Shown piece after piece: positions 12,772 to 23,639 of a DNA stretch of 27,638 nt. Origin of the DNA: a virus; IMG/VR virus record IMGVR_UViG_3300034190_002620, positions 1 to 27,638 of that record, one strand, 5' to 3'. Both the position numbers and the translations under genes were made by a program. A model generated the notes under the pieces. That model was not told where the DNA came from and did no database searches. It saw nothing but the letters and a program-made list of their open reading frames with translations. Each line of letters begins with the position of its first letter. Position 1 is the first letter of the stretch.

Positions 12772-14604
12772 TTAGTGAATTTCTGCATAATTATTTCCAA
12801 ACTGTGCATCTATCCCTAAATCTACGTTTAATTTCAACTTTTTATTAAGTTTACATATCGCTCCTTCCATTTTCTTTTTTGTTTCTTGTTCCTCACCTTG
12901 CTCAACAAGAGCAATGATCTCATCGTGAAACTGGCCTATCGTTTTAATTCCGTTGTGCCTACAGATGGCAACCCAATTATCAAAACAGTAAACTCCAGTT
13001 CCTTGATTTAAAGTGCTAAACCTATCCTTATCTGACCTTAAAGAATACCAGAATTTAGAAACTGGGTTCTGTACCCACATGCCACCAAGGACTTCCCTTA
13101 CCGATAGGGTGCTTGCCACTTTATCTATAGACCAATTACGAGACCAGAAAGCACCTAAAAGCTTTTGTGCATCACTCTTAGACATACCAGTTTCTCTCGC
13201 TAATTTCGCTGCGCCCACCCCATAGGTTGCGGAGTAGTTAACAACTTTGTAATTCTTACGGAGGGACTTCAAAGATCTCTCTCCGCTATTGTGCTTATCT
13301 ATATCAGACTGAGTTATAACCCCTGCATGTTTAGCCAAATCAAGATGGGGATCAAATCCAGGTTTTGACATTTCTGCAACATAGTCGGGATCTAAAGGCT
13401 TCATGTAGTGCCTTTTTGTTGTGTCCTCTAAGGAGGTCATGTCAGCGCCACAGAGAGTGTGTCCCTCTGGTGAAGTAAGGCAGCTTCTTATCTCAGCACC
13501 ATAGGGCCTGTCTACTGATGGTAAATTGACCAGTGGTTTGGCGTGTTTAAACCGTAATGTATTTGTAAGACCTGCGACAGTGGCCTGAACATAACCACCT
13601 CTTTCGTGGGATAACATTGCCTTGAGTATACCAATTCTATGAGTAAGTACAGACAGACCGTCAAGAAGAGAAATACTAGACTCTTTTTCAGATAGTTCCA
13701 AAACGCTTGCACAGAGTTCACCGTCCTTTCTTATTTGTTCTATCTTTCTTTCATTACCATCGTCCTCACGTTTGAATTTATAGGTACGAGGCTTCCAACC
13801 TAAACTATACAGCCAGTCTTTCACTTGATCGTTAGAGTTAGGGTTACCCTGTTCCTCTCCTACTTTAACAGTCAGAGACTGTACACTTTCTGGCATCTTG
13901 TGCTGCTTACAAAGCTCTATCCAACGCTCTCCATGACTGGATAAACTCTTATCCCTCTTGTACATGACTTTAGGTCTTGTCCTAAGTGCGGTCAAAATCC
14001 TAGGTGGCATAGCTTTAGCTAGAGCTATTGTCTTTTGCTCCTTTAGATCTTCCCATTCAGACAGAAACTTACTGGCTTTTGGTACGTCTAATTTCCACTG
14101 GAGGGCCTCCTGCTCTGCAGCACACTCTAGCTTAAACGTAAGGTAATCGATTAACCTCTTTTTCTCTTCAGGGTTAGAGTAAAGCTTATCTAACTTAAAG
14201 TTTAAGTCTCTCCATAGCCTAGCGTTTATCTTTACGTCTTCGTTACACCGATGTGCATACTCTTCCTTAGTTAAGCTCTGCCAGTCATCGATCTTTGGTT
14301 TAGGTACACCATACTCTTCTCCATAGCCCTCTAAGCCATGCCTGTTCCTTTGATGATGTACATACCAAGATAAAGGTAGGGTATCTATCAACCTAGCTGT
14401 AACTTTTATACCAAGCACATTTTCCACTGCAGGGATATCAAATCTAATGATGTTATGTCCAACAAGTTCTTTTGCTTCCGTAAAGAAAATACGCATGGCT
14501 TCATAGTCGTGCGTATGCTGAACATTGCCATTGTTATCTAACCAAGACACAACATGAATTTTTGTACTGTTTAAGCCATCTGTCTCTATGTCGAAAACTG
14601 TCAT
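12772..14604 (-). CDS. polA: Family A DNA polymerase with 3'-5' exonuclease domain
   Basis: 610 residues. The exonuclease domain shows MTVFDIETDG (Asp5, Glu7), VGHNIIRFDIP (Asp56) and CNEDVKINARL (Asp123). The polymerase domain shows motif A GADMTSLED (Asp388, Glu393), motif B LRKNYKVVNYSATYG (Arg449, Lys453, Tyr457, Tyr461-Gly462) and motif C GQFHDEI (His560-Asp561-Glu562). The residue equivalent to E. coli Phe762 is Tyr457, as in T7 polymerase; a Tyr here is linked to fast synthesis and acceptance of dideoxynucleotides. There is no 5' nuclease domain; that activity is encoded separately at 11230-11949. The start overlaps the primase-helicase stop by four bases. Confidence 0.96.
   Translation of the reverse strand: MTVFDIETDGLNSTKIHVVSWLDNNGNVQHTHDYEAMRIFFTEAKELVGHNIIRFDIPAVENVLGIKVTARLIDTLPLSWYVHHQRNRHGLEGYGEEYGVPKPKIDDWQSLTKEEYAHRCNEDVKINARLWRDLNFKLDKLYSNPEEKKRLIDYLTFKLECAAEQEALQWKLDVPKASKFLSEWEDLKEQKTIALAKAMPPRILTALRTRPKVMYKRDKSLSSHGERWIELCKQHKMPESVQSLTVKVGEEQGNPNSNDQVKDWLYSLGWKPRTYKFKREDDGNERKIEQIRKDGELCASVLELSEKESSISLLDGLSVLTHRIGILKAMLSHERGGYVQATVAGLTNTLRFKHAKPLVNLPSVDRPYGAEIRSCLTSPEGHTLCGADMTSLEDTTKRHYMKPLDPDYVAEMSKPGFDPHLDLAKHAGVITQSDIDKHNSGERSLKSLRKNYKVVNYSATYGVGAAKLARETGMSKSDAQKLLGAFWSRNWSIDKVASTLSVREVLGGMWVQNPVSKFWYSLRSDKDRFSTLNQGTGVYCFDNWVAICRHNGIKTIGQFHDEIIALVEQGEEQETKKKMEGAICKLNKKLKLNVDLGIDAQFGNNYAEIH
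14091..14107. repeat. ATTTCCACTG-family repeat inside the polymerase gene
   Basis: ATTTCCACTGGAGGGCC, differing from the consensus only near its end. It is read in the polymerase frame as ...ALQWK..., a different frame from the copies at 15942 and 16425. A weaker relative, TTTCCACTGCAGGG, lies at 14421-14434. Confidence 0.45.
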
Positions 14605-16106
14605 AACACCTCCTTAAGCGTAAAGCTATCTGAGTTAAACTTCATCTTACCTGCTCTACCTTCCTCACTGCAAGGTCGGTTCTTTTGTACGCTAATGTAT
14701 GTTGTATTGCGCTCGTCATAATCTTCTGACTCTTTGTCACGCTGCAGGTCTATGATAACGGATGCACGTTGTCCTATCATCTTACAATACTTAGGGTCAC
14801 CATTTTCATTTGTATGTGCAATCGTAACTATCCCTACATTTAGTTCTGCTGCAAGTTTCGACAATCTTATAGATAAATCAGCAAGCATAGCTTCTTTGCT
14901 TTCCTCAGATGTGCCAACAACAACATCTTGGATAGGTTCAAAGAAAACAAACTTACAGTCACAAGCTTGACTGAAAAACCGTATCTGATCGCAAAGTTCA
15001 TCTGCGCCTTGACCATCAGGTAAATAGAACTGATAAAAGTTTTCATCTTTGGTTAACTCAGAGATAGACTCTACAACATCGTCTTCAGCTTGTTTTTGTT
15101 CTATGAGATCCCTTCGGGTAAGGTTGTCATTCCTATGATAGGAAACTAAACCTAGTAAGCTTCTTAGCTTTGTCTCTTCTAAGTGCCAAGCTGCAATCGG
15201 TATGTCCCTCTGTAACATGTTGTATTCTAGATACCTCATAATCTCTGTCTTACCTATACCAGTCGGAGCCTTTATAACTGTAAAGTGTCCCTGCATTAAA
15301 CCTAAAATCTTGTCATCTAAAGCTTGTATGCCTGTTGGTACATACTGATGTTCTGGTGTGTCGTGATACAAAGTTAAGAATTGTTCTGTACTGTTAAGGA
15401 CATTCTCTGGTGTGTGCTTTTGTGGTTTAAACCAAGCTGACTTAAATTCCTGGATTGCGTCACGCTGCAAGAAATCATTCGCATCTTTATACTTGTCGTG
15501 AGGTACACGGTACACCTTGTTTGGGAACAGCCTAGCAACACGGTCAGCTACAGCATTGCCTGCATCATCGTTATCTACAGACAACACGATACGTTCAAAA
15601 CTGTTTAACCAGTCAGAGCAGTTCTCCCATAATTTCTTCGAGGGGGTCGCTGATGGTAGCGACACAACAGGATTGATGTACTGGCTCTTAAGCATTTGAG
15701 CGACAGACAATGCGTCTAGCTCACCTTCGGTTATTGTTACTGTCTTAGAGCAGCCTGCAGTGTAAAGGTTCATACCGAACAATTCATCACCTCGAAAGCC
15801 TTCTTTGGTGTAGAACTTCTTATCAGATATACAACGAACCTTAACACCACCTGAAGGATAAATATATTCTTGTTTATCTCCGTAAGTTAGTACGTTGTAG
15901 TCTTTCATAGTTTGTTGATTTATCCCTCGCATGGCCTCATAATTTCCACTGGAGGGGTCAGGTTTTCTTATCTCCACTATTTTCTCCGAGCTTAGTTTGC
16001 CCTTCGCTTGGCACGAGTGGCAATAGTAAACATTCTTTTCCTCATTGTAACTGTAGCAATCCTTGTGACCACAGTGAGGACATTCTTGATGTGTTATTTC
16101 TACCAT
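14601..16106 (-). CDS. Bifunctional primase-helicase (T7 gp4-like)
   Basis: 501 residues. A zinc ribbon (Cys9, Cys12, Cys29, Cys32), Toprim motifs (TEGELDALSV, Glu127; LSVDNDDAG, Asp178-Asp180) and a DnaB-type RecA helicase core follow in order. The helicase has a Walker A variant KAPTGIGKTE (about 279-288), AAWHLEET, VFFEPIQDV as motif II, and GIVTIAHTN. It unwinds the fork and makes primers for the polymerase encoded directly downstream. Residues DPSSGN near position 50 are encoded by one copy of the ATTTCCACTG repeat (15942-15958). Its leader carries promoter copy B and an inverted repeat. Confidence 0.95.
   Translation of the reverse strand: MVEITHQECPHCGHKDCYSYNEEKNVYYCHSCQAKGKLSSEKIVEIRKPDPSSGNYEAMRGINQQTMKDYNVLTYGDKQEYIYPSGGVKVRCISDKKFYTKEGFRGDELFGMNLYTAGCSKTVTITEGELDALSVAQMLKSQYINPVVSLPSATPSKKLWENCSDWLNSFERIVLSVDNDDAGNAVADRVARLFPNKVYRVPHDKYKDANDFLQRDAIQEFKSAWFKPQKHTPENVLNSTEQFLTLYHDTPEHQYVPTGIQALDDKILGLMQGHFTVIKAPTGIGKTEIMRYLEYNMLQRDIPIAAWHLEETKLRSLLGLVSYHRNDNLTRRDLIEQKQAEDDVVESISELTKDENFYQFYLPDGQGADELCDQIRFFSQACDCKFVFFEPIQDVVVGTSEESKEAMLADLSIRLSKLAAELNVGIVTIAHTNENGDPKYCKMIGQRASVIIDLQRDKESEDYDERNTTYISVQKNRPCSEEGRAGKMKFNSDSFTLKEVL
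15942..15958. repeat. ATTTCCACTG-family repeat inside the primase-helicase gene
   Basis: ATTTCCACTGGAGGGGT, encoding DPSSGN on the minus strand. It is one of about seven good copies between 14.1 and 19.4 kb. Confidence 0.55.
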
Positions 16107-16151: not shown

Positions 16152-16189
16152 CGTATATACATACAGGCTTTATAAAAAGTTTCAAACAT
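16152..16189 (-). promoter_or_regulatory. Conserved bipartite promoter motif, copy B
   Basis: On the minus strand GTTTGAAAC (16187-16179), ten bases, GCCTGTATGTATATACG. It starts two bases after the stop codon of the sigma-like gene and faces the primase-helicase gene. Element identity and spacing match copies A and C; the TA-rich part is shifted by a short insertion of a further TATG unit. Confidence 0.72.
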
Positions 16190-16734
16190 CACAAATTGTT
16201 ACAAAGTTTTTCAATAGCTGACTTTTCCTTTCTTGATACCCACATTTGGTTGTGACCTATGTCTTCTGCCACTTTATCTTGTGATAGGCCATCCCAAAAT
16301 CTTTTTCTAATAATTATCCATTCCTCCTGATCGAGACAACTTATCGCAACCTTAAAGATGTGATCGATTAACTGTTTTCTTTCCAAAAGGGTCTCTGTTG
16401 ACTCAGTGAGCGCCATGTCCTCTCTTATTTCCACTGAGGGGGTATACAATGCTTTTTGTAGAGCTAATGAAGTCCAACCACCCTTTCTATCGTCAGATTT
16501 TGTAGAGTGGGCCTTACTAGATTTTGGAACATGAACAACCTTTCTTTTGTGGTTGTAATAATCGTTCATAGCCGTTCGAGCATGGCTTTTAATTTTCTTA
16601 TAGTCTCTGTTACCTTTTTTAACTTCTTCGAGGCACTTGATAACGCCCTCTGAAACTAAGTCATGATACTCTTGACCGTCAGAATATCTCTTAGCAAGAC
16701 TCCTACAAAGTTTTAATATTTCCTGCTCTGTCAT
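16189..16734 (-). CDS. Phage RNA polymerase sigma factor-like protein
   Basis: 181 residues from ATG 16734. This start is preferred to a GTG at 16764 because AGGGA lies eight bases upstream and it overlaps the previous stop as TGATG. The N-terminal half resembles sigma-70 region 2: YHDLVSEGVIKCLEEV, then KSHARTAMNDYYNHKRK, which matches the helix that binds core polymerase and the -10 element. The C-terminal part is a region 4-like HTH: CLDQEEWIIIRKRFWDGLSQ, then VAEDIGHNQMWVSRKEKSAI. Between them is a Lys/Ser-rich linker. It could direct host RNA polymerase to phage promoters; the conserved promoter motif lies directly downstream. It could instead be a DNA-binding regulator with only sigma-like ancestry. 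One ATTTCCACTG repeat lies inside the gene. Confidence 0.7.
   Translation of the reverse strand: MTEQEILKLCRSLAKRYSDGQEYHDLVSEGVIKCLEEVKKGNRDYKKIKSHARTAMNDYYNHKRKVVHVPKSSKAHSTKSDDRKGGWTSLALQKALYTPSVEIREDMALTESTETLLERKQLIDHIFKVAISCLDQEEWIIIRKRFWDGLSQDKVAEDIGHNQMWVSRKEKSAIEKLCNNL
16425..16443. repeat. ATTTCCACTG-family repeat inside the sigma-like gene
   Basis: TTATTTCCACTGAGGGGGT, the fullest form of the consensus. On the minus strand it is read as TPSVEI in the linker of the sigma-like protein, a different frame from the copy in the primase gene. Confidence 0.55.
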
Positions 16735-16895
16735 CACTCTTCCCTCAAACAAAAATCGCACCACTCGTTATGAGTAGGCGCACCACAACTGACACATTTT
16801 CCAGTGTTAGCTTTTTCTTTCTCCTTTGCTCTTTGTCTCTCTTCCCTTGTCATCGGCCTTATTTTTTGCACTGGTCTTATCATGGCTGCTCTCAT
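16734..16895 (-). CDS. Zinc-ribbon microprotein upstream of the sigma-like gene
   Basis: 53 residues. A basic N-terminal half (REERQRAKEKEKA) precedes a four-cysteine ribbon, CVSCGAPTHNEWCDFC, ending LREE. Both ends are translationally coupled: its ATG overlaps the upstream stop (TAATG) and its TGA overlaps the sigma start (TGATG). Zinc ribbons next to sigma factors can be anti-sigma or co-activator proteins, but many phage zinc ribbons have unknown roles. The ORF, coupling and cysteines are seen directly; any partnership with the sigma-like protein is inference. Confidence 0.65.
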   Translation of the reverse strand: MRAAMIRPVQKIRPMTREERQRAKEKEKANTGKCVSCGAPTHNEWCDFCLREE

Positions 16896-19246: not shown

Positions 19247-19270
19247 TTCATTTCTCCGTTGTTCGAATCG

Positions 19271-19299
19271 TTTGTACCAATTTCCACTGAGGGGGTCAA
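19271..19299 (-). promoter_or_regulatory. Possible early promoter of the minus-strand operon
   Basis: On the minus strand TTGACC (19299-19294), 17 bases, TACAAA (19276-19271), about 25 bases ahead of the first gene's start. The -10 match is moderate, and the spacer is one of the ATTTCCACTG repeats. Confidence 0.35.
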
Positions 19300-19422
19300 C
19301 AAAATAATTTTCAACTTGTATGAGTAATGGAGGGTGACTCATATTTCCACTGGTGGGGGTCCTTATTTCCACTGGTGGGGTCAACAAAATAATTTTTTTT
19401 CAACTTGTGTGAGTAATGGAGG
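19279..19422. repeat. Imperfect ~55-base direct repeats with ATTTCCACTG motifs
   Basis: Copy 1 (19281-19333) and copy 2 (19366-19422) share TTTCCACTG, GGGGTCAACAAAATAATTTT, CAACTTGT.TGAGTAATGGAGG; copy 2 has four extra T. A short copy of the motif lies between (19343-19360). The period between the long copies is 85 bases. Confidence 0.8.
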
Positions 19423-19433
19423 AAGGGGTTCCT

Positions 19434-19529
19434 GATTCGTTCTTTGTTGATGATTCGTTTCTGATTCGTTCTAGTTTCATGATTCGTTTCTGATTCGTTT
19501 TCTCGTACATGATTCGTTCCTGATTCGTT
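19434..19529. repeat. Iteron array: seven GATTCGTT copies
   Basis: Copies start at 19434, 19452, 19463, 19481, 19492, 19511 and 19522, alternating 18 and 11 base steps (one step is 19), so pairs recur every 29-30 bases. Degenerate GATTCG copies follow at 19590 and 19605. Regular spacing near whole helical turns, in non-coding A+T-rich DNA, suggests binding sites for a replication initiator or regulator. Confidence 0.75.
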
Positions 19530-19637
19530 TTTTAAGCTTATAGCATTGCATAAATTGCATATCTGATATTTATTTTTTGCATAGCTCATGATTCGATTTT
19601 GCAAGATTCGAGTCTCTGTACGTCAAGACCACTTTTT

Positions 19638-19652
19638 GCATAGCTGCTATGC
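19638..19652. repeat. Inverted repeat GCATAGC-T-GCTATGC
   Basis: A perfect seven-base inverted repeat with one central base, in a run of TTGCAT repeats. TTTTTTGCATAGCT is also present near 19573. Operator-like in size. Confidence 0.5.
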
Positions 19653-19768
19653 ATTTATTGCATACCTACAAAATGTTCTATTTGCGACATTTTTTTACTT
19701 GACATGTCGTAAACAGTCCCAGGTCTAAATACGTCATTTTATGTAATAAAACCGACATTTTGGGCATT

Positions 19769-19787
19769 TTGAGTATCGAATACTCAA
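19769..19787. repeat. Operator-like palindrome TTGAGTAT-CGA-ATACTCAA
   Basis: Perfect eight-base arms with a three-base centre, about 170 bases upstream of the plus-strand gene at 19955. The size fits a binding site for a dimeric repressor. Confidence 0.55.
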
Positions 19788-19887
19788 TGTAAGCGTCACT
19801 GAGTAGGGCGAATCACTTTTTTTGATATAGACTTAATAAAACCCCTTTCGGCTCTGTACGGGCTTCTTAGGGCTTCTCAAGGTATAC

Positions 19888-19917
19888 TTGACTCTTTTTA
19901 CCGAATCATAGTACAAG
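19888..19917 (+). promoter_or_regulatory. Possible promoter for the plus-strand island
   Basis: TTGACT (19888-19893), 18 bases, TACAAG (19912-19917), about 38 bases before ATG 19955. The -35 is good and the -10 weak. Confidence 0.3.
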
Positions 19918-19954
19918 TTATTCATAGACAATAAAAACTTAGGAAAGAATCAAA

Positions 19955-20173
19955 ATGCCTACTAATAAGGATAAATTTTTTATCAAGTGTTACTTTGAAG
20001 AAATTAAAACTTTAATTGAAACCTTGGAAAAATTAGAGATTAGCGAAAAAGTTATTGAACAGGTTATCTCTGAGTCAACGATTCTCATGCATAGGTATGA
20101 TGAGATGAGTCGTAAAATGGCTAGAATTGCCAAAAATATAGATCATACTTTAAAACCGAAAGGATTAATTTAA
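19955..20173 (+). CDS. Small helical protein, unknown function
   Basis: 72 residues, mostly helical with coiled-coil character (YFEEIKTLIETLEKLEISEK, then DEMSRKMARIAKNI). AGGAAAG lies about seven bases before the ATG. It is the first gene of an A+T-rich plus-strand group that is opposite in direction to the neighbouring replication operon. No family recognised. Confidence 0.6.
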   Translation: MPTNKDKFFIKCYFEEIKTLIETLEKLEISEKVIEQVISESTILMHRYDEMSRKMARIAKNIDHTLKPKGLI

Positions 20174-20174
20174 A

Positions 20175-20273
20175 ATGGGTATTCTAATTTTCACAATGGG
20201 TTTTATTTTGGTAGCTGCTTTGGCGGCTGCTATCGTTGATTTGATTTTATGGCTACAAAATAGGGGCTTATAA
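20175..20273 (+). CDS. 32-residue membrane peptide
   Basis: The ATG lies two bases after the preceding stop. The peptide is almost entirely one hydrophobic segment (FTMGFILVAALAAAIVDLIL) with a short polar tail WLQNRGL. TAATG coupling joins it to the next small gene. A single-TM micropeptide of this type could be an inhibitor or toxin, but only topology is visible. Confidence 0.5.
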   Translation: MGILIFTMGFILVAALAAAIVDLILWLQNRGL

Positions 20274-20413
20274 TGTTTGAAGTATGGATCAAAAGAAATG
20301 ATAACTGGAGGTTGTCCGCTGCTATTGGTTATCAATCAACATATCTACAAGATATTTTAATAAGTTTATATAATGACAAAAGTGTACAACAATTGAAAGT
20401 GATAAAATGTTAA
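20273..20413 (+). CDS. 46-residue protein, unknown function
   Basis: Begins MFEVWIKRNDNWRLSAAIGY. Its start overlaps the upstream stop (TAATG) and its end overlaps the start of the 290-aa gene by seven bases. No motif is recognised; the coupling on both sides argues for a true gene. Confidence 0.5.
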   Translation: MFEVWIKRNDNWRLSAAIGYQSTYLQDILISLYNDKSVQQLKVIKC

Positions 20414-21279
20414 TTAATCAATTCCCGAAAAACAATAGCCAAGTGTTAAAAGAGCATTATAATTCACCATTTTGGCAATTAGTGAGAGATCATGCAAACG
20501 CTAAAATTCGAGCTGCATTACGACCAAACAATACTTTAATATGGGATAAATTGCCCAATATATTAAGCACTAATCCAAAAGTTGAGAAATCACCAGATAC
20601 AGACGAAAAATTCTTAGTTAATATTATCCACCTTGCTCCCTCTTGGGCTTCTCTATTCAATACTTGTTCTAGAGCAACGATTGGTTGCGGCACTAATTGC
20701 CTAAATGAGTCGGGACATGGACAAAGACATATGATCAATAATGGTAGTCATACGGTGCATGTAGCTAGAGTCATACGCTCTATTATTTGGTTTAAGTATA
20801 GAGACCAATTTAAAGCAAAAGCACAAAGAGAAATAGACTCCCTTAAGCGTAAAGCGTTTAAACTTGGTGCGACTCCAGTGTTGCGACCTAATGGAACAAG
20901 TGATTTAAAATTTGAGTCTTTATGGCCCCAATTGTTTAACGATAATCATGATCTAGTTATTTATGATTATACTAAAGACTCCAATCGTGACGTTAGTCAT
21001 TTATCAAACTATTACTTGTGTTATTCAGTAAGTGAAGACTCAACACAACAACAAATAGAGCAAGCTTTTAGTAATGGATTAAATTGTATTGTTGTCTTTA
21101 GAATAAATAAAACACAACCTAAACCGATTCATTATAACGGACGGCCCGTTATTGATTGCGATAAGCATGACCTACGATTTCTCGACCCTATCGGAGTCTA
21201 TGGCGGCCTATCATGTAAAGGAAATACGGCCATAAAAGACTCTACGGGTTTTGTTAAAGATGTTCCCCAATATGCATGA
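20407..21279 (+). CDS. 290-aa conserved plasmid/phage-type protein, unknown function
   Basis: Soluble protein with a Cys/Gly-rich motif in the first half (LAPSWASLFNTCSRATIGCG then NCLNESGHGQRH), followed by RVIRSIIWFKYRDQF, GATPVLRPNGTSDLKFESLW, VIYDYTKDSN, CIVVFRINK and DKHDLRFLDPIGVYGGLSCK. I recall this order of motifs from uncharacterised proteins of phages and marine plasmids (possibly the DUF7227 or Gp88-like group), but I cannot confirm the family. The cysteines may bind metal. It is the main gene of an A+T-rich, plus-strand island and ends just before a strong terminator, so it is transcribed separately from structural and replication genes. Confidence 0.75.
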   Translation: MLINQFPKNNSQVLKEHYNSPFWQLVRDHANAKIRAALRPNNTLIWDKLPNILSTNPKVEKSPDTDEKFLVNIIHLAPSWASLFNTCSRATIGCGTNCLNESGHGQRHMINNGSHTVHVARVIRSIIWFKYRDQFKAKAQREIDSLKRKAFKLGATPVLRPNGTSDLKFESLWPQLFNDNHDLVIYDYTKDSNRDVSHLSNYYLCYSVSEDSTQQQIEQAFSNGLNCIVVFRINKTQPKPIHYNGRPVIDCDKHDLRFLDPIGVYGGLSCKGNTAIKDSTGFVKDVPQYA

Positions 21280-21406
21280 TTTTTTCCTAGGGATAGACTC
21301 CCCAACTTGGCGACTCTTCGGAGTCGTCTTTTTTCTTTTATGCTCAATGGTTTATATTGTGTACTATACAAGCGTTTATTTACTCTTGATTAAACTTAAG
21401 CTTTAA
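21272..21406 (+). CDS. Possible 44-residue membrane peptide overlapping the terminator
   Basis: Starts eight bases before the end of the preceding gene and reads through the terminator hairpin. The product has a strongly hydrophobic segment (LFGVVFFLLCSMVYIVYYTS) and ends LLLIKLKL. Overlap with an excellent terminator argues against it; the coherent TM character and overlapping start argue for it. Confidence 0.3.
   Translation: MHDFFLGIDSPTWRLFGVVFFLLCSMVYIVYYTSVYLLLIKLKL
21311..21338 (+). terminator. Strong intrinsic terminator after the plus-strand island
   Basis: CGACTC (21311-21316), TTCG tetraloop, GAGTCG (21321-21326), then TCTTTTTTCTTTT. A UUCG-capped stem with a U tract isolates the island from the structural operon. 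Confidence 0.85.
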
Positions 21407-21669
21407 ACGTGACATGGGGAAGCTTGGCGATTCGCCCTCCGAGCGCAAGTATTTTATTTGTTTGTCAAGAACTTTCTTATAAACTGTTGTATTTTTACCA
21501 TAGTCGTTACTTTTTTTCTCGTTAGGGGGTTGACAAGGGTGGGACCCTCCAGAAAATACCGAATCGAATCAGCCGGGGGCGCAACCGACCCCATGTCCGA
21601 AAACAAAATATTTGTCAAGAAAAAAGATTCGTTTAAATACAATGGCTTGTAAAAAAGTTTCCTAGTGTG

Positions 21670-21898: not shown

Positions 21899-22297
21899 AT
21901 GGATCAAAATTTAGCATTGAAATATAGTGAAGTAATCGCAAAGAAGGTACGAGAAGGTATCCGTAATGGTGTATCTGTTAAAGACATCATGGGATCAATA
22001 CAGAAGTATCAATATGCACCTGCGTCTACATCTACGTTGTATAAACTCTACGGTGAAACAATTGCCGAAGAGAGAGCAAGTATTGTAGGTCAAGTAGGTT
22101 CTGTTGTTGTGCAGCAAGCTCTAGATGGCGATTTTAAAGCTGCAGAGTTTTTCCTCAGATCTAAAGGAGGGTGGTCACCCACTCAAACTATCAATGAGGT
22201 TGAGCAGACAGAAGATCCAGACATGGATGAGAGTGCTATTGATACGCTTATGACACTGCTAGGCAAAACATCCGATGAAGAAAATAACAGCGAGTGA
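21899..22297 (+). CDS. terS: Terminase small subunit candidate
   Basis: 132 residues. The N-terminal half is a helical, HTH-like DNA-binding region (KKVREGIRNGVSVKDIMGSI, then YAPASTSTLYKLYGE), the middle is helical (VVVQQALDGDFKAAEFFLRS) and the C-terminus is acidic. This organisation and its position directly before the large subunit (23-base overlap) fit TerS, which recognises phage DNA and feeds it to TerL. The ribosome-binding site is weak and may be enclosed in a leader stem. Confidence 0.8.
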   Translation: MDQNLALKYSEVIAKKVREGIRNGVSVKDIMGSIQKYQYAPASTSTLYKLYGETIAEERASIVGQVGSVVVQQALDGDFKAAEFFLRSKGGWSPTQTINEVEQTEDPDMDESAIDTLMTLLGKTSDEENNSE

Positions 22298-23639
22298 ACT
22301 GAGAAGTTTATCCCCTGCGAAGCTACAAAGTGTATTAGAGACTTTAGGTCCTAAGAAGACACAAGAGCTACAACACACATGGGAGTTCTGGGCAAGACCA
22401 GAGCAATTAGAACCTGAAGGTGATTGGAACATATGGATAGCCCTAGCAGGTCGAGGTTGGGGTAAAACCAGAGCAGGTGTTGAATGGGTTAGGCATCAGG
22501 TCAAATCTGGAAAGAGAAGGATTGCTGCTGTTGCTCCAACAAACTCTGATATTAGAAGGGTTATGGTAGAAGGGGAGTCAGGCTTCCTAAATACCTGTTG
22601 GAAGGGCGACAAAACTTACCGTGGCGCAGACCTCGGTTTTCCTAACTGGTCTCCTACAAACAGGACTTTAACGTGGGAAAATGGCGCAAAAGTAGAGTTC
22701 TACTCAGCCGAAGACCCAGAGAGACTTAGGGGACCACAGTTTCACGCTGCTTGGGCAGACGAAGTAGCTGCTTGGAGAAATCAGCAAGACGTTTGGGATA
22801 TGTTGCAGTTTACCCTGCGACTAGGTAGAAAGCCAAGAGTAATGGTAACTACTACTCCTAGACCGACTAAGTTGATGAGAACACTTATAAAGTCTAATGA
22901 TAGTCATGTTACAAGTGGTTCAACCTTTGATAACATAGACAATTTAGCGAAACCGTTCTTAGATACTGTAAGAAAAGAGTATGAAGGAACTCGTCTAGGT
23001 AGACAGGAGCTTTATGCCGAAGTATTAGAAGAAGCGGATGGAGCGCTTTGGACAACTGAAATACTAGATAGTTGTCTTGTAGAGAAGAAAGATATACCAG
23101 AACTAAACAGGATTGTAGTTGCAATAGACCCTGCTGTGACTGCAAACATAGAGTCAGATATGACAGGTTTAGTTGTTGCAGGTATAGATGTAAACGGAGT
23201 AGGATATGTCCTTGAAGATGCCACCAATAGGTACACTCCTGCAGAATGGGCTGCGAAAGCTGTATCGTTATATAGTGACTATAGTGCTGATCGTATTGTT
23301 GCAGAACGCAATCAAGGCGGTGAAATGGTTCGCAGAACGCTTGAAGCAGAAAGCGAAACCGTTCCTATCAGGCTTGTACACGCTAGTCGAGGAAAAATGG
23401 CTAGGGCTGAACCTATATCTGCACTCTACGAAAGAGGCCGTGTTAAACACGTTAAGGGCCTTGATGAACTGGAAACGCAAATGAGAACATGGGAGCCTCT
23501 AGGTTCCATTGGATCTCCCGACAGACTAGACGCATGTGTATGGGCATTAACGGACTTAATGCTTAATGGTGTGAACAACCCTACAGTTCGCCTCTCTTAC
23601 GCTTCCGCAAAGGGTCTTAACGAAGTATATTTAGGTTAA
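22275..23639 (+). CDS. terL: Terminase large subunit
   Basis: 454 residues. ATPase domain: Walker A IALAGRGWGKTRAG (about 55-68), Walker B HAAWADEVAAW (Asp162, Glu163) and coupling motif VMVTTTPRPTK (about 189-199). Nuclease domain: VVAIDPAVTANIESDMTGLV (Asp285, Asp295) and a C-terminal Asp in DRLDACVWALTDL. It translocates DNA into the procapsid and cuts it. The AGRGWGKTRAG pattern resembles terminases of siphophages and of alphaproteobacterial gene transfer agents. Length is normal and all key residues are present. Confidence 0.95.
   Translation: MKKITASELRSLSPAKLQSVLETLGPKKTQELQHTWEFWARPEQLEPEGDWNIWIALAGRGWGKTRAGVEWVRHQVKSGKRRIAAVAPTNSDIRRVMVEGESGFLNTCWKGDKTYRGADLGFPNWSPTNRTLTWENGAKVEFYSAEDPERLRGPQFHAAWADEVAAWRNQQDVWDMLQFTLRLGRKPRVMVTTTPRPTKLMRTLIKSNDSHVTSGSTFDNIDNLAKPFLDTVRKEYEGTRLGRQELYAEVLEEADGALWTTEILDSCLVEKKDIPELNRIVVAIDPAVTANIESDMTGLVVAGIDVNGVGYVLEDATNRYTPAEWAAKAVSLYSDYSADRIVAERNQGGEMVRRTLEAESETVPIRLVHASRGKMARAEPISALYERGRVKHVKGLDELETQMRTWEPLGSIGSPDRLDACVWALTDLMLNGVNNPTVRLSYASAKGLNEVYLG

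Follow-up and report, generated by a model that had tools for sequence, protein, structure and literature searches.

We found that the virus contig analysed here (27.6 kb, hereafter the window) contains an island of GANTC sites filling the stretch from where the early operon diverges up to terS, that the rest of the genome avoids this pentamer, and that both the enrichment and the avoidance reflect selection at the DNA level. Inside the island lies an array of GATTCGTT octamers; it belongs to NYGNTTYGTTC, a widespread kind of putative phage binding array built on an 11-mer, and is the form of it that contains GANTC. We put the chances close to even that the island would be a control region that serves the divergent early and late/terminase operons and is gated by CcrM methylation. 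Among cultured phages, Roseobacter phage CRP-6 is the closest relative, with identities to the window of 77% for TerS, 67% for TerL, 78% for the primase-helicase and 70% for the polymerase. The leftward operon of the window encodes a sigma-like factor, the primase-helicase, a polymerase, nucleases and a ribonucleotide reductase, and the rightward operon comprises a 72-aa ORF, GP88, TerS, TerL and a portal protein (Table 1).

In the window, 36 of the 62 GANTC sites fall within 19251-21650, where 7.6 are expected (z +11.5), and 29 sites versus 6.6 expected (z +8.7) are left in the island when the array is removed; the remaining 25 kb are depleted, with 26 sites observed and 84 expected (z -6.3). 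In the complete genome of CRP-6, the final 3 kb, which correspond in place to the island of the window, hold 38 of the 69 sites (z +10.9), and 31 sites versus 161 expected lie outside them (z -10.5). None of the other palindromic pentamers behaves in this way, and the island contains GANTC with each of the four bases at N, which fits GANTC itself being what matters. Synonymous-codon resampling served as the null model for coding DNA. The coding part of CRP-6 outside the island contains 18 sites versus 74 expected, whereas its GP88-like gene contains 15 versus 5.6 expected, a number reached in none of 2000 synonymous shuffles; the GP88 gene of the window likewise exceeds its expectation (p 0.0005, counts in Table 1). 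Because these counts deviate from the synonymous-codon shuffles, selection acts on the DNA, not on the protein.

Requiring at least 18 GANTC sites in some 2 kb, we detected islands in 98 of the 394 distinct viral contig stretches gathered. It should be noted that the loci were gathered via the arrays, GP88, the primase and a second repeat, part of them with a GATTC-containing pattern and many by GANTC-free features (the second array, GP88, the primase), so that contig counts are not a census. The position is constant: the island lies 5' of TerS and ends at terS in all 58 island contigs with a TerS homolog, and it lies 5' of the primase-helicase, too, in each of the 41 island contigs that encode a homolog of that protein. 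No island was found in CRP-1, CRP-4, CRP-9 and CRP-13, or in the examined 50 kb of CRP-7. Three further phages (L360, L422, L411), whose TerS is 75% identical, lack an island; their 11-mer array is of a non-GATTC form. Among 72 arrays collected without GATTC, the GATTC form occurs in five, and these five all rank among the nine whose surroundings are richest in GANTC.

Depletion of GANTC is general in the alphaproteobacterial phages that we checked and is known in pelagiphages (PMC9516812). The group of the window resembles pelagiphages in this genome-wide avoidance by marine phages of Alphaproteobacteria and differs from them in that, in the passages of that report considered here, depletion is reported with no enriched island. 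In the literature searched, no report turned up of such an island together with avoidance across the genome in an abundant marine phage group; clusters of host-methylation sites in phage control regions are known from P1.

The seven exact octamers claimed in the original prediction are real. They start on the + strand at 19434, 19452, 19463, 19481, 19492, 19511 and 19522, in steps of 18, 11, 18, 11, 19 and 11 bp, and only two further exact copies occur elsewhere in the 27.6 kb. For the whole window, 0.48 copies are expected by chance (sd 0.66), and nine copies were reached in none of 100 shuffles; dinucleotide shuffles of the 567-bp intergenic stretch, which already include the array's own dinucleotides, gave seven identical 8-mers within 100 bp in 2 of 1000 cases. 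As had been described, this stretch is non-coding and A+T-rich (65%), with leftward genes, replication genes among them, on one side and rightward genes on the other. The alternation of 11- and 18-bp steps holds apart from the single step of 19, whereas a period of three helical turns does not, 29-30 bp being about 2.8 turns. An extension of the array to 19610 is not borne out either, because the copies at 19590 and 19605 are degenerate and the exact copies stop at 19529. Rfam and tRNA scans gave no matches, and BLAST of the array against phage isolates, with a query that was possibly masked or too short, gave none.

Table 1. Features of the window that are discussed in the text (ordered by position)
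Feature	Position	Strand	Remarks
Predicted adenine-type DNA methyltransferase, 183 aa	10141..10692	-	phrog_799; EPCAGDG and NPPW motifs
Primase-helicase	14601..16106	-	Toprim + DnaB_C; leftward replication operon
Phage sigma-70-family factor	16189..16764	-	Leftward operon
GANTC island, ~2.4 kb	about 19251-21650 (feature row 19265..21630)	.	Non-coding DNA and genes up to terS; all four N forms
Second repeat array TTTCCACYGRNGGGG	19279..19380	+	Three copies (19279, 19342, 19364); common to CRP-6 and many island phages
GTTCCTGATTCGTTC	19428..19442	+	GTTC-N7-GTTC unit giving the register of the phage-wide 11-mer
GATTCGTT array	19434..19529	+	Seven exact copies, each in (T)GATTCG context; all seven match YGAKTCG
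Two degenerate copies, GATTCGAT (19590) and GATTCGAG (19605)	19590..19612	+	
Inverted repeat TGCATAGCTGCTATGCA	19637..19653	+	Kept in several relatives
Near-palindrome TTGAGTAT-CGA-ATACTCAA	19769..19787	.	
72-aa ORF	19955..20173	+	First rightward ORF past the array; weak HTH-like match, below cut-off
GP88-family protein gene (PF17338), 290 aa	20407..21279	+	Within the island; 10 GANTC vs 4.5 codon-expected
Probable TerS (small terminase)	21899..22297	+	Assigned by its place ahead of TerL and by homology to the CRP-6 gene located there; bounds the island on the right
TerL (large terminase)	22275..23639	+	First clear late gene

An unbiased scan, together with mixed arrays (L214, L206), identified the octamer as one form of a phage-wide 11-mer in an 11-bp register, for which we coined the family label NYGNTTYGTTC; the recurring step in this wider family is 11 bp, not 29 bp. 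By its register, its non-coding location and its position 5' of the terminase operon, the array of the window fits the family as defined here. The 11-mer arrays lie 5' of terL at 66 of 67 loci, on the same strand as terL in 44 cases and on the opposite strand in 22. The exact GATTCGTTNCTGATTCGTT pattern occurs in 81 viral contig stretches. In relatives the copy number varies and the steps of 11 and 18/19 bp persist, and the orientation of the array between the divergent gene blocks is kept in classes A and B. Since copy number, spacing grammar and position are found again in dozens of contigs from marine phages, in which the form of the array is conserved, an array of protein-binding sites in a divergent region, as originally predicted, fits the data, whereas its assignment to an origin found no specific support. 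Clustering of all neighbouring ORFs revealed no universal binder gene near the arrays, and we found neither an earlier report of GTTC 11-mer arrays nor the motif strings in the literature searched. Copies of the GATTCGTTC pair in bacterial chromosomes or prophages were considered and rejected, with eight scattered matches in 85k bacterial and archaeal genomes, which is about chance by a rough base-count estimate.

Several other elements were observed in these control regions. Arrays of the GTTC 11-mer in non-coding DNA, e.g., GTTCACGTTTTGTTC, were seen widely across diverse phages (L188-L272, L336-L433). The second repeat, TTTCCAYYGGNGGGG(TCA), occurs two to six times on that side of the region where the early genes lie (also at L179:16748-16880 and in L434-L529); it was found in at least 120 contig stretches, about half of which, among the matches listed, have a GANTC island. 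ParS-like palindromes TGTTTCACGTGAAACA (at most two mismatches) occur in GTTC-array phages, in several cases near the array (L341, L352, L365 with three copies, L420 with four, L372, L376, L395, L409). Palindromes of the TAGTTTAAYNNTTAAACTA form are repeated in the control regions of otherwise different Roseobacter phages (L307:608-740 and L311, from CRP-9 and CRP-13; class-A right flanks). The control region of CRP-603 has four TGTGATCACA palindromes (L310:7105-7223), and CRP-1 and CRP-345 have two as well.

Comparisons of close relatives show that the array is one exchangeable part of the putative 2.4-kb control region. CRP-6 has nine GTTGCAAAAATGTCAC repeats in its place (L179:16511-16733, at the right end of CRP-6). 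Single GTTGCAAAAATGTCAC elements were also seen beside GTTC arrays in several other phages. A second pair, CRP-9 and CRP-13, both on host strain FZCC0023, are 81% identical in TerS, 73% in the primase-helicase and 71% in the polymerase; CRP-9 has a class-B array and CRP-13 has no array.

These exchanges bear on the idea that the region is a replication origin, in which the array would consist of initiator iterons and the island would be the alphaproteobacterial counterpart of the GATC clusters at oriC and P1 oriR, its methylation licensing or delaying re-initiation. Origins of P1 and E. coli carry clusters of Dam-methylated GATC. Like iteron origins of plasmids and phages, the region combines short, regularly spaced direct repeats with A+T-rich non-coding DNA, the most A+T-rich part of the window lying immediately to the right of the array; its divergent position, its dense methylation sites and the occurrence of 11-mer arrays on either strand relative to terL (44 versus 22) are compatible with an origin as well. 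The cumulative GC skew indeed has its minimum near the array, at 19-20 kb, but this is not specific for an origin because transcription diverges at the same point. Unlike iteron origins, the region has no initiator-type gene recognised among the neighbouring proteins scanned, and its array is exchangeable while the replisome is conserved. The original prediction had named, beforehand, loss of the array with the neighbouring genes kept as evidence against a conserved origin, and this is the situation in CRP-6, which retains these genes and carries a different, unrelated repeat. The array is absent from CRP-6 and CRP-13, and an iteron origin is disfavoured because the replisome is conserved (70-78% identical in CRP-6) without the array. 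The 290-aa GP88 protein, which had been suggested as a binder, was also rejected as an initiator or array binder, because it diverges or is replaced where the array stays: phages with the array have GP88 at 60%, at 32%, or an unrelated family instead. We consider a replication origin unlikely. As a separate observation, six otherwise similar phages (L110, L111, L114, L148, L202, L218) have, in the position of GP88 (window 20407-21279), a cysteine-rich family of ~250 aa that is unrelated to GP88 and has no Pfam match.

It is rather unlikely, in our judgement, that the array is an operator for a regulator encoded by the phage, such as its sigma factor or a small DNA-binding protein made early, and that the island is a separate by-product of restriction pressure relaxed in this interval. 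Non-GATTC 11-mer arrays are indeed found in many island-less phages, island phages carry a sigma-like gene, and the depletion in alphaproteobacterial phages described above, pelagiphages included, would agree with restriction pressure. However, relaxed avoidance would bring the density of GANTC back to expectation, not to 3 to 5 times above it, and arrays of the GATTC form go together with GANTC-rich surroundings. Restriction alone can explain the avoidance of GANTC, but not a 3- to 5-fold enrichment.

A packaging site, i.e., a methylation-dependent pac element read by TerS, has a precedent in P1, whose pac needs Dam methylation (PMC12707154). The constant ending of the island at terS and the location of 11-mer arrays 5' of terL would agree with such a site, and the window shares with the GATC clusters of the P1 pac and origin a concentration of host-methyltransferase sites in a putative phage control region adjoining packaging genes. 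Unlike in P1, the sites are GANTC rather than GATC, they spread over 2.4 kb including coding DNA, and they are avoided elsewhere. Against a pac element, TerS is 77% identical in CRP-6, which lacks this array, 75% in the island-less L360, L422 and L411, and 81% between CRP-9 and CRP-13, of which only CRP-9 has an array; arrays occur on both strands relative to terL, and contig ends are not clustered at the array. By this indirect test, TerS as a reader of the array is disfavoured because it is conserved with and without the array or the island (75-81% identical), and pac is quite improbable. Genome termini at the array were rejected, with array positions scattered along the contigs.

Tandem SOS boxes (GTTC-N7-GTTC) bound by host LexA, compelling at first because the GTTC half-site and the 11-bp step are the same and GTTCN7GTTC is present in 20 of 20 alphaproteobacterial lexA promoters, are very improbable and were rejected by comparison of the N7 with 38 host boxes (lexA, recA and uvrA genes), none of which matches the inner NYGNTTY, position 6 being A or G in 31 of 38 host boxes versus T in 190 of 212 phage arrays, and the window array having only one exact GTTCN7GTTC.

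We therefore return to the methylation-gated control region. In Alphaproteobacteria, GANTC is the methylation target of CcrM. GcrA binds m6A-GANTC, requires m6A and recruits RNA polymerase (PMC3667746); an extended motif for activation by GcrA, TGATTCG / YGAKTCK, has been reported for Caulobacter, and this preference was not seen in Brevundimonas (PMC7987155). The phage of the window would infect a CcrM-bearing alphaproteobacterium, a host that we infer only from CRP-6, which grows on a Rhodobacteraceae strain and has FZCC0042 as its laboratory host. The CcrM of this host, or the phage's own adenine-type methyltransferase, would methylate the island, and replication of the phage DNA would change its methylation state and thereby gate the divergent control region. 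The array, with seven tandem TGATTCG, could be a high-affinity docking site for a reader of methyl-adenine, for which the best candidate would be host GcrA, bringing sigma-70 RNA polymerase to methylated TGATTCG promoters; DNA methylation would then time the switch from early to late/terminase genes.

Like GcrA/CcrM-controlled promoters, the array has the exact extended motif, in 7 of 7 copies (PMC7987155). GcrA was found in each of the 20 alphaproteobacterial genomes tested. Unlike such promoters, it has seven tandem copies, within 36 GANTC sites in 2.4 kb. Outside the array the island shows no preference for the extended motif (34%, versus 34% at non-island sites), which differs from these promoters as well, so that a role of GcrA, if any, would be confined to the array. 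Further observations count against the switch: CRP-6 has the island but lacks the TGATTCG array, and simple promoter scans around the array of the window gave nothing above chance. Because of the former, CRP-6 would have to use something else as the reader site, perhaps its own repeats.

The 183-aa protein is predicted to be an adenine-type DNA methyltransferase; its fold model is of moderate quality (pLDDT 72) and matches class-I methyltransferases, including the adenine-N6 enzyme TaqI. It was found in CRP-6 and in eight island contigs, these being the ones found to hold both methyltransferase and island, and the island-less CRP genomes yielded no copy of it. Isolate relatives of this phrog_799 protein are almost all in phages of Alphaproteobacteria, and those checked are GANTC-depleted. 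We rejected the idea that phages with this methyltransferase generally have an island: Mel-JY03, RHph_N3_2 and GB2A are GANTC-depleted and have no island in the parts read, which for GB2A leave out 1-12 kb. The methyltransferase is thus a lead and not a proof, because three other carriers have no island in those parts.

The avoidance of GANTC in marine phages has been known, but without an explanation. The strong enrichment, its identical place in 58 of 58 contigs and its upkeep through codon choice suggest that these phages actively use GANTC. Our tentative proposal, which we hold as plausible rather than probable, is that a group of abundant marine phages keeps a 2-3 kb island as an epigenetic switch, in which adenine methylation by host or phage would be read at the TGATTCG array or at an exchangeable replacement and would set the time at which early genes give way to packaging; elsewhere the genome would have been purged of GANTC, leaving the island as the only part that is read. 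The swap of arrays between close relatives offers a natural experiment on the change of specificity in phage control regions, and since an RCA Roseobacter strain serves as culture host of CRP-6, the use of the CcrM/GcrA cell-cycle mark by a phage is directly testable.
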